Source: Neisseria leonii (GTDB taxonomy: Bacteria > Pseudomonadota > Gammaproteobacteria > Burkholderiales > Neisseriaceae). From it: 64,000 nt of DNA. The translations under genes were made by a program, and so were the position numbers. Under the pieces are notes generated by a model. It was given only the letters and a program-made list of their open reading frames with translations. It did not search any database and was not told where the DNA came from. This document shows positions 10,285-45,223 of this stretch, piece by piece; position 1 is the stretch's first letter; each line of letters begins with the position of its first letter. The stretch is taken from assembly GCF_028776105.2 (NCBI RefSeq), contig NZ_CP145606.1, forward strand, positions 1,364,001 through 1,428,000. The letters run 5' to 3'.

Positions 10285-10306
10285 TCCCATGATTCACGGA
10301 TTTCCT

Positions 10307-11641
10307 ATGTTCAACCATTCCGCTTCCGAACTGAACGAACTGTGCCTTCTCGCCCTGAATGCCGCACGCCGTCAAGGTGCTTCTGCGGCCGAAGTCGATT
10401 TAAGCGAATCACTGGGGCAGAACGTACAGGTCAGACTGCAACAAATCGAACAGATCGAACACCAGCAGGACAAATCGCTCGACATCACGGTTTACAGCGG
10501 ACAGAGCAAAGGCCGCGCCAGCACTGCCGACTTCTCCCCTCAGGCCGTCGAACAAACCGTCCGTGCCGCCCTCGACATCGCCCGCCACACCGCCCGCGAC
10601 GAATACGCAGGCTTGGCCGATGCCGCACTGATGGCGCAACACATCGGCGATCTCGACAAATTCCACCCGTGGGACTTATCCCCCGCCGCTGCCGCCGAGC
10701 TGGCCAAACGCTGCGAAGCGGCCGCACTCGACACCCACCCCGCCGTGCAGAATTCCGAAGGCGCGGATGTCCACACCAACCACTACCAATTCGTTTACGG
10801 CAACAGCCACGGCTTTATGCAGCACCAGCAGGGCACGCGCCACAGCGTATCCGTCAGCGTGGTGGCGGCCGACAGCGGCGGTATGCAGCGCGATTACTGG
10901 TACGACCTCGCCCGCAGCCCGCATGAAATCGACAGCATGGAAAACATCGGCCGCACCGCCGCCGAACGCACCGTCCGCCGTCTGGGCGCGCGCAGCCTGC
11001 CCACAGGAAACTACCCCGTCCTCTTCGACACCACCGTATCCGGCAGCCTGATCGGCCACTTGGTCGGCGCACTCTCGGGCGGCGCGCTCTACCGCCAAAG
11101 CAGCTTCCTCACCGGCAGTCTGGGCAGCCGGATTCTGCCCGAGTGGCTGAGCCTGCGCGAAGAGCCGCATATCCCGCGCGCTTGGAGCAGCACCTATTTC
11201 GATGCCGAAGGCGTGGCCACACAGCCGCGTTTCGTGATTGAAAACGGCCGCGTGGCGGGCTATTTTCTCTCCGCATACAGCGCGCGCAAACTCGGTATGC
11301 AGACCACCGCCAACGCTGGCGGCGCACACAACCTGATACTCGGCCACACCTGTGCCGCCCAATCCGACCTGTTGCGCCAGATGGGACGCGGCCTGCTGGT
11401 AACCGAACTGATGGGACAGGGCGTGAATATGCTGACCGGCGACTACTCGCGCGGCGCGGCGGGCTTTTGGGTGGAAAACGGCGTGATTCAATATCCGGTC
11501 GAAGAAATCACCATCGCCGGCCGCCTGCAAGATATGCTGCGCAACATCGCGGGCGTGGCCGACGATGCCCTGCGCCGCTCGTCGCACAAAGTCGGCTCGG
11601 TACTCATCGGCGAAATGACCGTGGCCGGACAATCATCATAA
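10307..11641 (+). CDS. pmbA: Metalloprotease PmbA/TldE
   Basis: Partner of TldD in the zinc metalloprotease that, in E. coli, matures microcin B17 and degrades unfolded peptides. The 444-residue protein aligns over its whole length with E. coli PmbA: FSPQAVEQTVRAALDIAR, GHLVGALSGGALYR, SYSARKLGMQT, and the C-terminal VTELMGQGVN, GDYSRGAAGFWVENG and YPVEEITIAG. The start is taken at ATG 10307 after a weak GGA; an in-frame ATG at 10289 is possible. The tldD partner is not in this window. Confidence 0.93.
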   Translation: MFNHSASELNELCLLALNAARRQGASAAEVDLSESLGQNVQVRLQQIEQIEHQQDKSLDITVYSGQSKGRASTADFSPQAVEQTVRAALDIARHTARDEYAGLADAALMAQHIGDLDKFHPWDLSPAAAAELAKRCEAAALDTHPAVQNSEGADVHTNHYQFVYGNSHGFMQHQQGTRHSVSVSVVAADSGGMQRDYWYDLARSPHEIDSMENIGRTAAERTVRRLGARSLPTGNYPVLFDTTVSGSLIGHLVGALSGGALYRQSSFLTGSLGSRILPEWLSLREEPHIPRAWSSTYFDAEGVATQPRFVIENGRVAGYFLSAYSARKLGMQTTANAGGAHNLILGHTCAAQSDLLRQMGRGLLVTELMGQGVNMLTGDYSRGAAGFWVENGVIQYPVEEITIAGRLQDMLRNIAGVADDALRRSSHKVGSVLIGEMTVAGQSS

Positions 11642-11683: not shown

Positions 11684-11830
11684 AGGCCGTCTGAAAACGA
11701 GCGAAGCGGGTTTCTGCGCAACTAAAACGAGCGAAGCGGGTTTCTGCGTAGCTAAGTCAAAACAAACGGAATTGCTTTTTGTCGGATACAAGTATCCGAC
11801 CTACATGAGAGCGAAGCGGGTTTCTGCGAC
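11684..11830 (+). repeat. DUS-anchored hairpin repeat array 1
   Basis: A DUS (11684-11695) runs directly into two 30-bp units (11695-11724 and 11725-11754), each starting AAACGAGCGAAGCGGGTTT and ending CTGCGNANCTA. A third partial unit is at 11808-11830. A REP-like palindrome sits between the second and third units. Same family as the arrays at 18.1, 38.0, 40.0, 41.3, 42.8, 43.5 and 44.4 kb. Confidence 0.85.
11781..11804 (-). repeat. REP-like palindrome a
   Basis: GTCGGATACAAGTATCCGAC followed by CTAC. The 20-bp core is fully palindromic. The flanking CTAC/GTAG shows its orientation. Confidence 0.75.
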
Positions 11831-18136: not shown

Positions 18137-18272
18137 AGGCCGTCTGAAAACGGTGTCTTGCACCGTTTCTGCGAAGCTAAAACGATGCCCTGCGCCGTTT
18201 CTGCGAAGCTGAAACAGAGCGCAGCCGGTTTCTGCGATGTGATGAAACCCGCTGCTCATTTTCAGACGGCCT
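18137..18272 (+). repeat. DUS-anchored hairpin repeat array 2
   Basis: A DUS (18137-18148), units of 32, 32 and 30 bp (18148-18179, 18180-18211, 18212-18241), then a short degenerate stretch and an inverted DUS (18261-18272). Unit 1 is AAACGGTG-TCTTG-CACCGTTT plus CTGCGAAGCTA; unit 2 is AAACGATGC-CCT-GCGCCGTTT plus CTGCGAAGCTG. The arms of each unit are self-complementary although their sequences differ. Sits between gntK and the AEC transporter gene. Confidence 0.88.
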
Positions 18273-37956: not shown

Positions 37957-38059
37957 AGGCCGTCTGAAAACGAGTGCAGCGGGTTTCTGCGAAGCTAAAA
38001 TAGTGCGCAGCACTATTTCTGCGCAGCGAAAACAAGCAGAACCAGTTTTCAGACGGCCT
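37957..38059 (+). repeat. DUS-anchored hairpin repeat array 3
   Basis: A DUS (37957-37968), a 30-bp unit AAACGAGTGC-A-GCGGGTTT plus CTGCGAAGCTA, a 32-bp unit AAATAGTGC-GCA-GCACTATTT plus CTGCGCAGCGA, a degenerate third unit, and an inverted DUS (38048-38059). It fills almost the whole gap between murD and ftsW. The second unit is a perfect 9-bp hairpin. Confidence 0.88.
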
Positions 38060-39969: not shown

Positions 39970-40122
39970 ACAAACGGGCGCGCTGCCGTTTCCGCCGCGC
40001 AGAAATACCGTACCTGTTTTCACTTTGCAGAAACTTGCCCCGTGCCGTTTTCACTGCACTCAACCCGCTTCGCCCGTTTTAGCTGCGCAGAAATAGTGCT
40101 GCGCACTATTTTCAGACGGCCT
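39970..40122 (-). repeat. DUS-anchored hairpin repeat array 4
   Basis: Read on the minus strand from the DUS (40122-40111): AAATAGTGC-GCA-GCACTATTT plus CTGCGCAGCT, then four increasingly degenerate units that still begin AAAAC and mostly keep CTGC (the last is AAACGGCAGCGCGCCCGTTT). It runs to within a few bases of the globin gene start and separates mraY from that gene. Confidence 0.82.
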
Positions 40123-41277: not shown

Positions 41278-41437
41278 AAGCCGTCTGAAACCGGCGAAGC
41301 TGTTCTGCGAAACCAAATCAGCGGCGCGGATTTCTGCACCGTTAAAACGGAAGGCAGCAAATTTCAGTTTTGCAGAAACCCGCTGCACCCGTTTTGGCTG
41401 CGCAGAAATAGTGCTGCGCACTGTTTTCAGACGGCCT
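41278..41437. repeat. DUS-anchored hairpin repeat array 5 (two-headed)
   Basis: Two sets of units face each other. From the left near-DUS (41278-41289, plus strand) come AAACCGGC..., then AAATC-AGCGGCGCG-GATTT plus CTGCACCGTT. From the right DUS (41437-41426, minus strand) come AAACAGTGC-GCA-GCACTATTT plus CTGCGCAGCC and AAACGGGTGCAGCGGGTTT plus CTGC. The right DUS overlaps the murF stop codon. Fills the murF-mraY gap. Confidence 0.85.
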
Positions 41438-42819: not shown

Positions 42820-42898
42820 CAGCCGGGCAGAAACCCGCTTTGCCGATTTGAGCTTCGCAGAAACTTCGCTGCGCCGATTTTACCGTTTCAGACGGCCT
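42820..42898 (-). repeat. DUS-anchored hairpin repeat array 6
   Basis: From the DUS (42898-42887, minus strand) the units AAATCGGC-GCA-GCGAAGTTT plus CTGCGAAGCTC and AAATCGGC-AAA-GCGGGTTT plus CTGCCCGGCT follow, ending just before the murF start region. Lies between the M23 gene and murF. Confidence 0.82.
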
Positions 42899-43445: not shown

Positions 43446-43580
43446 TTCAGACGGCCTTTACCGCAATCACATCATGCCGTTGCCGTTTTCCGCTTTTATC
43501 AGGCCGCCTGAAACGGGCAAAGCAGGCTTTTTCACAGCTCAAATAAATGCGCAGCCAAAACGGGAAAGCGGTTTCTACCC
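43446..43580 (+). repeat. Degenerate hairpin repeat array 7
   Basis: After an inverted DUS (43446-43457) and a near-DUS (AGGCCGCCTGAA, about 43501-43512), degenerate units begin AAACGGGCAAAGCAGGC..., AAATAAATGCGCAGCC and AAAACGGGAAAGCGGTTT plus CTACCCGTCC. Lies between murE and the M23 gene. Family membership is clear but the copies are worn. Confidence 0.6.
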
Positions 43581-43636: not shown

Positions 43637-45223
43637 TTAACGTGCCGCCAATGCGGCTTGCGCGGCTTCAAAGTCGGAAAAGTGCTGTTTTTCGCCCAAT
43701 ATGTCCTGATAGGTTTCATGGCCTTTGCCTGCGATCAGGACAATATCGTCTGCTGCCGCGTGCCGGACGGCATATTCAATGGCGGTTCGGCGGTCGGCCG
43801 ACACATATTCGGGCTGCGGCACGGCAGGCAGAATATCGTTGATAATGGCCTGAGGTTCTTCCATGCGCGGGTTGTCGCTCGTCACGACCACTTTGTCGGC
43901 ACCGCCGTACGCAGCCGCGCCCATCAGCGGGCGTTTGCCCTTGTCGCGGTTGCCGCCGCAGCCGAACACGCACCATAAATCCGCGCCCTGCGGCTTGATT
44001 TCCTGCAAGGTGGCCAGTGCTTTTTCCAGCGCGTCGGGCGTGTGGGCATAATCGACGACGACCAGTGGTTTGCCCGCATTCATGATGCAGTCCATGCGGC
44101 CGGTGGCGGGGCGGATTTGCGCCAGCGCGTCCAATACCTGCGCCAAGGGATAACCCGCCGCGCACAGCACGCCCGCACAGGCAGCCAGATTCTGCGCATT
44201 GAATCGGCCGAGCAGCCGGGTTTGGCAGCGTCCCTGCCCCCACGGTGTTTCCAGTACTACTTCCATGCCGTTGGCGGAAGCGGCAAATGATGCAATGCGG
44301 ATATCGGCCTGTGCCGAAAATCCGTAGCCGTAAACTTCCGGCCCGCCGCGCTCGGTTTGAGCGGCACGGAGATTCACGCCGTCTGTTTCGGCCTCGCAGA
44401 AACCTGCTTCACTCGTTTTAGCTTCGCAGAAACCCGCTGCGCTCGTTTTCAGACGGCCTGCCAGTTCCGCACCAAAGGCATCGTCCACATTGATGACGGC
44501 GTGTTGCAGCCCCCGCCAGTCGAACAGGCGCGCTTTGATGTTGCCGTAAACTTCCATGCTGCCGTGATAATCGAGATGGTCGCGGGTAAGGTTGGTAAAC
44601 ACGGCCGTCTGAAATGCCACACCGTTCACACGGCCTTGGTCGAGGCCGTGGCTGGATACTTCCATCGCCACGGCACGCGCGCCCTGTTGCCGGAATCCGT
44701 GCAGCAGGGTTTGTACGCTGACGGGATCGGGCGTGGTGTGGGTGGCTTCGGCCAAACTGCCCCAAAAGCCGTTGCCCACTGTGCCGATGACGGCGCAGCT
44801 GTTCGGGCGGCCTTCCAGAATGTCGGCGGCCTGTGCCAGCCATTGGGTGATGGAGGTTTTGCCGTTGGTGCCGGTTACCCCCCATACGTTCAGGCCGTCT
44901 GAATCGATGCGCGACGGGAGGCCGTAAAGTTGCGCGGCCAACAGCCCTGCCCGTTCAGTCAGATTTTTGATGCCTTGATGGGGGACGCACCATTCACTGT
45001 TCCAGGTAAATGTGCCGTCGTCGTCCCAAAATACAAACGCCGCGCCGCGGGCAAGGGCATCGGGGATAAAGTTGCGCCCGTCGGTGTATTCGCCTCGGCA
45101 GGCAATAAAAATATCGCCGCTGCGGATGTTGCGGCTGTCGGCATGAAGCAGCCGCCCCGCCGCGTTTTCACACAGCAGGGGCGGCAGAACGGTTTCGGCC
45201 GGGGGAAATGACTCGCTGAACAT
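43637..45223 (-). CDS. murE: UDP-MurNAc-tripeptide synthetase with repeat-derived insert
   Basis: Adds meso-diaminopimelate to UDP-MurNAc-L-Ala-D-Glu. 528 residues, about 35 more than I recall for relatives such as the E. coli enzyme. ATP loop GVTGTNGKTSITQWL (GTNGKT at 118-123), MEVSSHGLDQGRV, NLTRDHLDYH, and the meso-DAP motif DNPR at 450-453. Residues 257-294 are an in-frame hairpin repeat array, read as KTSAAGFCEA, KTSEAGFCEA, ETDGVNLRAA and so on with a ten-residue period, between DDAFGAELAG and EVYGYGF. The insert probably forms a surface loop, because all active-site motifs remain intact. Confidence 0.95.
   Translation of the reverse strand: MFSESFPPAETVLPPLLCENAAGRLLHADSRNIRSGDIFIACRGEYTDGRNFIPDALARGAAFVFWDDDGTFTWNSEWCVPHQGIKNLTERAGLLAAQLYGLPSRIDSDGLNVWGVTGTNGKTSITQWLAQAADILEGRPNSCAVIGTVGNGFWGSLAEATHTTPDPVSVQTLLHGFRQQGARAVAMEVSSHGLDQGRVNGVAFQTAVFTNLTRDHLDYHGSMEVYGNIKARLFDWRGLQHAVINVDDAFGAELAGRLKTSAAGFCEAKTSEAGFCEAETDGVNLRAAQTERGGPEVYGYGFSAQADIRIASFAASANGMEVVLETPWGQGRCQTRLLGRFNAQNLAACAGVLCAAGYPLAQVLDALAQIRPATGRMDCIMNAGKPLVVVDYAHTPDALEKALATLQEIKPQGADLWCVFGCGGNRDKGKRPLMGAAAYGGADKVVVTSDNPRMEEPQAIINDILPAVPQPEYVSADRRTAIEYAVRHAAADDIVLIAGKGHETYQDILGEKQHFSDFEAAQAALAAR
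44338..44459 (-). repeat. Hairpin repeat array 8, in frame inside murE
   Basis: Starts at a DUS (44459-44448, minus strand). Units of 30 bp: AAACGAGCGCAGCGGGTTT plus CTGCGAAGCTA, AAACGAGTGAAGCAGGTTT plus CTGCGAGGCCG, then two degenerate units beginning AAACAGACGG and AAACCGAGCG. All units are exactly 30 bp here, unlike the 30-32 bp seen in intergenic arrays, which keeps the murE frame open. Confidence 0.9.

Follow-up and report, generated by a model that had tools for sequence, protein, structure and literature searches.

Interspersed hairpin repeats arrayed behind DNA uptake words in Neisseria leonii and other Neisseriaceae

Arrays of the window and their repeat unit

The stretch of DNA analysed here, referred to as the window, comprises 64,000 nucleotides of Neisseria leonii (G000:C1:1364001-1428000), the genome of which has 2,206,085 bases. 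Its repeat arrays begin at a DNA uptake word (DUS) and lie next to or inside genes such as murD, ftsW, mraY, murF and murE (Table 1). Array 1 is placed after the stop codon of the gene at 10289-11641, which we take to be pmbA/tldE-like, and its third unit is broken by a GTAG-type repeat. Array 3 sits between murD and ftsW, antisense to both, and array 4 lies immediately 3' of the mraY stop codon. Array 8, to which an earlier reading had assigned the span 44338-44459 and of which it had overlooked the location in the murE frame, encodes the residues TSAAGFCEAK TSEAGFCEAE ... The first-pass annotation had described eight DUS-anchored arrays. Seven of them contain the conserved tail, but array 7 has no tail within 3 mismatches in the window tail search and is weak. 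The layout that had been proposed, a DUS followed by AAA, arm, loop, arm and TTT and then by CTGCGNAGCTA, proved correct on reading all eight places, and a DUS was indeed found at both ends of arrays 2, 3 and 5.

Table 1. Repeat arrays of the window and the gene frame carrying array 8 (positions are those of the window)
Feature	Position	Strand	Description
Array 1	11684..11830	+	DUS 11686-11695; two 30-bp units, tails 11711-11723 and 11741-11753
Array 2	18137..18272	+	DUS 18139; tails 18166 and 18198; degenerate third unit; inverted DUS 18261
Array 3	37957..38059	+	DUS 37959; tails 37984 and 38016; inverted DUS 38048
Array 4	39970..40122	-	DUS (reverse) 40111; 15-nt stem of first unit perfectly paired; distal units degenerate
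Array 5	41278..41437	-	DUS (reverse) 41426; at least two units; inverted DUS 41280; between murF and mraY
Array 6	42820..42898	-	DUS (reverse) 42887; tails 42851 and, more degenerate, 42821
Array 7	43446..43580		Near-DUS GCCGCCTGAA and degenerate unit-like sequence only; weak
Array 8	44358..44447	-	Three 30-bp units (90 bp) inserted in frame into murE, immediately 3' of DUS 44448-44457
murE frame	43637..45223	-	Intact, 528 aa, carries array 8

The tail 17-mer TTTCTGCGAAGCTAAAA, searched with up to 3 mismatches, has 13 matches in the window, all of which fall inside seven of the eight arrays named earlier, compared with a mean of 0.21 expected from 100 dinucleotide shuffles (largest shuffle value 1). 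In the whole G000 genome, the exact tail TTTCTGCGNAGCTNAAA occurs in 98 copies and its reversed-pattern control in none; with up to 2 mismatches, TTTCTGCGAAGCTAAAA is found 158 times and its reversed form three times. Moreover, the exact tail is present in 38 of 83 Neisseriaceae genomes, with 1 to 135 copies each, and in six of 12 genera, and the reversed-tail control gave 0 in all 83 genomes. The earlier idea of a spreading repeat family is supported. A scan of named genomes detected the DUS-plus-unit pattern in N. elongata ATCC 25295, Bergeriella denitrificans NBRC 102155, N. weixii 10022, Neisseria sp. MVDL19-042950 and three Neisseria MAGs. Tandem Repeats Finder made a tandem call for only two of the eight arrays (11694-11755 and 18147-18237). 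At the gathering score, Rfam reported three tRNAs only in the whole window, and the arrays match no family.

Each unit consists of AAA, a segment X, TTT, CTGCGNAGCT and A. Its first part is a small stem-loop made up of AAAC, one arm, a loop that is frequently GNA, the other arm and GTTT, and its second part is the conserved tail TTTCTGCGNAGCT; the unit edges are AAAAC or GAAAC. Among 154 units from 60 G000 arrays, X measured 13 nt in 71, 15 nt in 36, 14 nt in 19, 5 nt in 12 and 12 nt in eight units, the rest having other lengths, which places most units at 22-32 bp. A 15-nt X forms a stem with a three-base loop. In 27 distinct sequences of this length, 134 of 162 arm pairs were of the Watson-Crick type, as opposed to 108.3 (sd 4.4) after shuffling the right arms among units; none of 2000 shuffles reached the observed value. 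The arms have changed on both sides, as in CGGTGC/GCACCG, TAGTGC/GCACTA and CAGCGC/GCGCTG. For the 13-nt X, the excess is smaller (96 of 180 pairs vs 84.5, sd 3.1, 0 of 2000), and two of the five positions hold mostly unpaired letters (GA, GG, AG). Both shuffle tests assume an independence that is broken by the kinship of the units. The paired arm changes back the hairpin label strongly for 15-nt arms and weakly for 13-nt arms. Folding of window pieces as single-stranded DNA supports a structure in only three of seven: z values relative to shuffles were -7.6, -5.9, -3.6, -0.35, -0.19, +0.80 and +1.58, meaning that three pieces clearly beat the shuffles and four do not. The best value belongs to array 3 and is aided by its inverted DUS pair, and both of the two best-folding pieces (z -7.6 and -5.9) contain such a pair. 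The piece of array 4 at 40050-40122, with its perfect 15-nt stem, folds no better than shuffles (z -0.35).

The most variable position of the tail is the N of its core, GCGNAGC: 29 of 55 rows deviate there, and 13 at the position ranking second. The rows stem from the 63 mismatched places among the 100 listed of a total of 158, nine copies of a single array having been reduced to one. Passages of PMC4686876 describe exceptionally stable, nuclease-resistant DNA mini-hairpins with a GNA loop, in which N is free, and two G-C pairs. By its letters alone, the tail core conforms to the same loop rule as the mini-hairpin d(GCGAAGC), which in these passages is known from synthetic oligonucleotides, whereas the tail core belongs to a genomic repeat. 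A DNA folding program returned no fold for the tail 8-mer, its tables presumably being without such loop bonuses. A C-GNA-G centre is also found in 68 of 119 units with an X of 5, 13 or 15 nt (22 of 68 distinct X). A second type of unit, with 18 bp, a GNA loop and a sequence close to AAAACCGNAGGTTTCGCY, was observed between ordinary units in G025 and G051 (L193, L209-L228).

Uptake words, their dialects and the empty sites

A whole-genome count of AG-DUS cores in G000 gave 1302 forward and 1287 reverse copies. When the exact tails of this genome were grouped into 55 arrays, 53 had a forward DUS or one-mismatch DUS at most 49 nt upstream, with the array 3' of it, in agreement with the DUS being the left boundary. 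An exact DUS precedes the first exact tail by 7-23 nt in 45 of the 55 arrays (21 at 17 nt, 20 at 15 nt, three at 7 nt and one at 23 nt). In four arrays, the exact DUS is 45-49 nt away, beyond one imperfect unit, and in four others, the DUS at 15 or 17 nt has one mismatch. In one array, the DUS lies 167 nt upstream across degenerate units, and the last array lacks a forward DUS, its sole DUS being an inverted one downstream. As a control, an exact DUS was found within 30 nt of 23 out of 1100 random positions in the same loci. The 13 extra places fetched for imperfect tails yielded a DUS at 15-17 nt for 12 of 17 tail matches; the five matches without a DUS are in L276, L278, L282 and L285 (two). 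The right edges are ragged, and inspection of the printed arrays by eye revealed no common inverted ends besides the DUS pairs.

According to PMC3630211, CTG at +6 to +8 and A at +10 are common to all DUS dialects. For 16 genomes, the dialect in front of the fetched arrays was compared with that of the sampled DNA, the number of arrays being small (one to a few) outside G000, G025 and G003. The letters of the individual dialects were found in the sampled DNA. In this comparison, 55 of 62 arrays in G000 and 29 of 32 in G025 have AG-DUS. G003 has 31 of 32 cores of the eikDUS type, and 11 of its 16 arrays stand behind eikDUS. Likewise, mucDUS accounts for 43 of 45 cores in G015 and precedes four of five arrays, and wadDUS accounts for 34 of 60 cores in G014 and precedes its one array. 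The majority dialect of the host stands before most fetched arrays in G000, G025, G003, G004, G014, G015, G019 and G021. Since the fetched arrays often follow the host dialect, as in the genomes with eikDUS, mucDUS and wadDUS, the DUS would seem to serve as a landing site and not to travel as cargo. However, arrays behind a dialect other than the main one of the host are found in G012, G023, G026, G027 and G031. An exact DUS is missing from three of three fetched arrays in G009, six of six in G054 and four of five in G063, some G054 arrays starting with a damaged DUS; an intact DUS is therefore not essential. DUS anchoring is a trait of many lineages and not of the unit everywhere. The proposed confinement of the arrays to AG-DUS species is not supported, in view of both the other dialects and these three genomes. 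In G009, arrays of 22-bp units without a DUS occur three times with a spacing of about 3.85 kb (L145 and L146; G009:C1 at about 799.6, 803.4 and 807.3 kb). This locus seems to be repeated in tandem because the two copies that were compared have the same flank.

Empty sites bounded by a DUS, as expected of an element, were recovered at two genes. A murE match is present in 46 of 46 genus genomes, and 30 loci were fetched, including that of G000. Among the 29 other relatives inspected, 28 carry a DUS or near-DUS followed by native sequence and no array, the empty-site words being GCCGTCTGAA (21), GTCGTCTGAA (6) and GCCGACTGAA (1). At the same place, G000 has exactly 90 bp extra, namely three 30-bp units inserted in frame, with the DUS before them and the native AACCGAGCG after them. 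The MurE of G000 has conserved ends and shares 98% identity over all 528 residues with an N. leonii protein of the same length. Complete N. leonii genomes are available for the three strains 3986T, 51.81 and JF 2415, the ANI of 3986T to the other two being about 97% (PMC11316581). The remaining relative, G051, has a different and shorter array at the murE site. Compared with G051, the left flank of G025 is identical at 229 of 238 positions and G025 is 39 bp shorter directly behind the DUS; this difference may reflect loss instead of gain because the shorter G025 copy retains a unit-like stub. At mraY, ten of 16 fetched relatives were processed; each of the ten shows a DUS of one dialect or another at most 20 nt from the stop codon, and none has an array there. 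Thus, the DUS predates the array at murE and mraY. Behind pmbA, where G000 carries array 1, a count by eye over the 150 nt shown behind the gene found a forward AG-DUS, mucDUS or wadDUS in 20 of 29 relatives, in many cases within a short inverted pair, and the tail unit occurs in none of those relatives over the same 150 nt.

Order of the units and placement in the genome

The order of the units was studied by walking from the DUS through 60 G000 arrays selected for a start at a DUS or one-mismatch DUS, 40 of which have at least two units. The first unit was allowed up to 2 mismatches and later units 3, and the loci were retrieved by their exact tails, a selection for arrays that contain at least one good unit, wherever in the array it lies. 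Tail mismatches average 0.18 for first units (n=60), 0.78 for second units (n=40), 0.95 for third units (n=20) and 0.33 for fourth units (n=9); from the fifth unit on, the means are 0.83 upward with small n. Of the 40 arrays, 25 have a better first than last unit, four a better last unit and 11 a tie. With a single threshold of 2 mismatches throughout, the corresponding numbers for 37 arrays are 19, four and 14. Furthermore, 15-nt stems occur in 28 of 60 first units, 17 of them being perfectly paired, vs four of 40 second units (p 1.5e-4). The DUS-proximal units are the best preserved ones in G000; therefore, the newest units probably adjoin the DUS, where they would have entered.

A unit interrupted by the GTAG-type repeat at the identical break point recurs at different DUS sites in L001, L012, L024, L025 and L031, and looser variants are present in array 1 (window 11758-11805), L014, L051 and L278. 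This recurrence suggests that array pieces are copied between sites. The interrupted unit lies behind at least one ordinary unit, and the first units differ among the arrays sharing the block, so simple block copying is insufficient to account for them.

The skew origin of G000 was located at about 1.6 Mb by GC skew in 20 sampled stretches. Around it, at 1.16-1.80 Mb, lie 44 of 56 arrays (the placement listing counts as 56 the same tails that are grouped as 55 elsewhere), and sampled DUS counts look even. In G025, the array density is also higher toward the skew origin at about 1.8 Mb. Many DUS-unit-DUS pieces of G025 (L209-L228) were found inside a larger dispersed repeat with the flanks GTGTAGCGTGCTTGCCTAAGCATGCACG ... 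GTGCGTGCTTTGGCTCGCACCC.

Possible origins of the arrays and their relation to known repeats

Our tentative reading, which we hold to be nearly as probable as not, is that the arrays consist of interspersed, non-coding repeats that are copied to sites with a DUS, and we infer that this probably happens by DUS-primed ectopic copying. A DNA end stopping in the DUS plus AAAAC would pair with an array-bearing DUS elsewhere and copy one or more units from the donor array. It would then return to its own site via AAAAC or GAAAC at the unit edges, by template switching or ectopic gene conversion. New units would enter at the DUS, and older ones would be pushed outward and decay; slippage between the AAAAC edges could multiply identical units. 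Transformation, which prefers DUS-bearing DNA, may carry arrays between cells and species. The arrays would mostly be passengers, for which no function is required. Spread by transformation and recombination between DUS copies, as suggested at first, fits the left boundary fixed by the DUS and the shared blocks. However, template switching needs homology, and yet the dialects with arrays share little beyond CTGAA.

The chief rival, which we consider unlikely, holds that a Y1/HUH or other transposase moves the folded single-stranded unit in trans, the target being the 3' end of the DUS (CTGAAAAC), which the unit edge GCTAAAAC would imitate. Single-strand transposition would suit the precise left boundary, the fixed orientation and the newest units lying at the target, as well as the variable stems of conserved shape. 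It would also suit the replication-strand lean in G025, where 77 of 110 arrays are on the lagging side and 33 are not (p 3e-5) and DUS in 20 sampled regions have no such lean; this lean may, however, belong to the larger composite repeat that carries the unit. In G000, by contrast, the arrays have no strand lean (29 vs 27). Moreover, Pfam Y1_Tnp matches and unit counts are hardly correlated in 72 genomes of at least 90% completeness (Spearman 0.08), and G003, G009, G054 and G063 contain 17-31 exact tails and no Y1_Tnp match. The RAYT-like gene of G000 is located among ten GTAGGTCGGAT copies, and no unit tail occurs in the 5.5 kb fetched around it. Pfam Y1_Tnp, the sole transposase family scanned, was thus rejected as a tracking partner of the repeat family.

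It is improbable that the arrays are kept behind stop codons for a selected function, as expanded DUS terminators or 3'-UTR hairpins serving termination or mRNA protection. As judged with a crude frame caller, 33 of 60 DUS-anchored G000 arrays follow a gene in sense, and 20 of these have the DUS at most 30 nt from the stop codon; several of the same places in relatives are short DUS-pair terminators, and the paired changes in the 15-nt arms also agree with a function. However, 17 arrays are antisense and eight lie inside predicted frames (two are unclear), with one of the copies being in frame in murE. An inverted DUS is found within 60 nt of the array end in 10 of 60 arrays, compared with 60 of 218 other DUS. 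In addition, the T run has only three or four bases, the distal units decay and, of the seven window pieces folded, four are unremarkable. Some of the arrays may act as terminators, but this role leaves the antisense and in-frame copies unexplained.

More speculative still, and in our judgement rather improbable, is a selfish repeat coupled to transformation: arrays of nuclease-resistant GNA mini-hairpins behind a DUS would survive import as single strands, move as incoming DUS-bearing single-stranded DNA and settle behind the dialect of the host, so that transformation would be the transposition cycle and no transposase would be involved. If imported single-stranded DNA were the moving form, the family would represent a mobile element without an enzyme of its own, and a mini-hairpin known synthetically would be put to natural use in the GCGNAGC core. 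Finally, array 7 hardly exceeds background and some of the extra imperfect tail matches without a DUS (L276, L285) resemble coding sequence, but the notion that chance or codon bias makes the sequence only look repetitive is refuted by the reversed-pattern and shuffle controls in the genome (98 vs 0), the window (13 vs 0.21) and the family (38 of 83 vs 0 of 83) and deserves practically no credence.

Several known repeats resemble the arrays in part. REP/BIME and REPIN repeats, which are mobilised by RAYTs, are likewise short intergenic stem-loops in many, clustered copies (PMC2817692; see also PMC3116915). In contrast, the units lack a GTAG tag, their stems are highly variable, they form head-to-tail direct arrays with a DUS boundary, and no association with RAYTs was found, neither near the G000 gene, which is flanked by GTAG repeats, nor as a correlation over the 72 genomes. 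The units read AAAAC...TTTCTGCGNAGCT, and CGTC is present in them only as a part of the AG-DUS and is absent from eikDUS-anchored arrays. A 183-aa RAYT-like frame with a Y1_Tnp match lies at L269 2441-2989 (G000:C1:980.9-981.5 kb), and its GTAG-type copies have at most 1 mismatch and occur on both sides. The frame and these repeats are probably the REP system of G000, separate from the DUS-anchored family.

The dRS3 and CGTC-1 repeats are likewise palindromic and clustered in Neisseria (PMC3733652); a word search of the text of that paper gave no mention of uptake or DUS. The AG-DUS happens to contain CGTC, and the eikDUS does not. The dRS3 sequence differs from that of the unit. Correia/NEMIS elements are likewise small, non-autonomous and intergenic in Neisseria; they have about 100-150 bp, long terminal inverted repeats and a TA target duplication, none of which is seen in the arrays. 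The arrays instead show a DUS at the left edge and a ragged right edge. Array 8, with its 90 bp, three units and open frame in murE, is similar to the Rickettsia palindromic elements (mentioned in PMC3733652), which are small palindromic repeats lying in frame inside genes. In its behaviour, it resembles an element of this type. Rickettsia elements are scattered, whereas the units here stand in tandem behind a DUS. Terminators formed by inverted DUS pairs start from the same DUS as the arrays, and passages of PMC2397512 count such pairs at distances of up to 21 nt. The arrays differ in adding tail units, which can separate the pair; the DUS-pair stems of the window often extend as AAAAC...GTTTT.

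Carriage of array 3 by a plasmid or phage is unsupported: its 103 bases, searched in distant mode, matched none of 50,697 phage and 72,556 plasmid records, in collections that may omit the records of G000 itself, and a 1-kb query around it had no plasmid match. Full-text literature searches, mostly outside subscription journals, where a description may be in print, retrieved none of a DUS-anchored repeat family, and searches for pieces of the tail returned unrelated human-biology papers only. Interspersed hairpin repeats themselves are known; what would be new is their use of the DNA uptake word as a landing site. The DUS, which has been described as an uptake word and a terminator, would here also be a preferred landing site for repeats that cross genera. 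Often standing behind the local dialect, the family may provide a natural record of events at the DUS. Moreover, since new units apparently join at one end of an array and those at the other end decay, the arrays could hold ordered histories like those of CRISPR spacers, for use in strain tracking. L272, L015 and L031 contain runs of up to nine or ten near-identical units, which point to recent tandem slippage and would be suited to strain typing.
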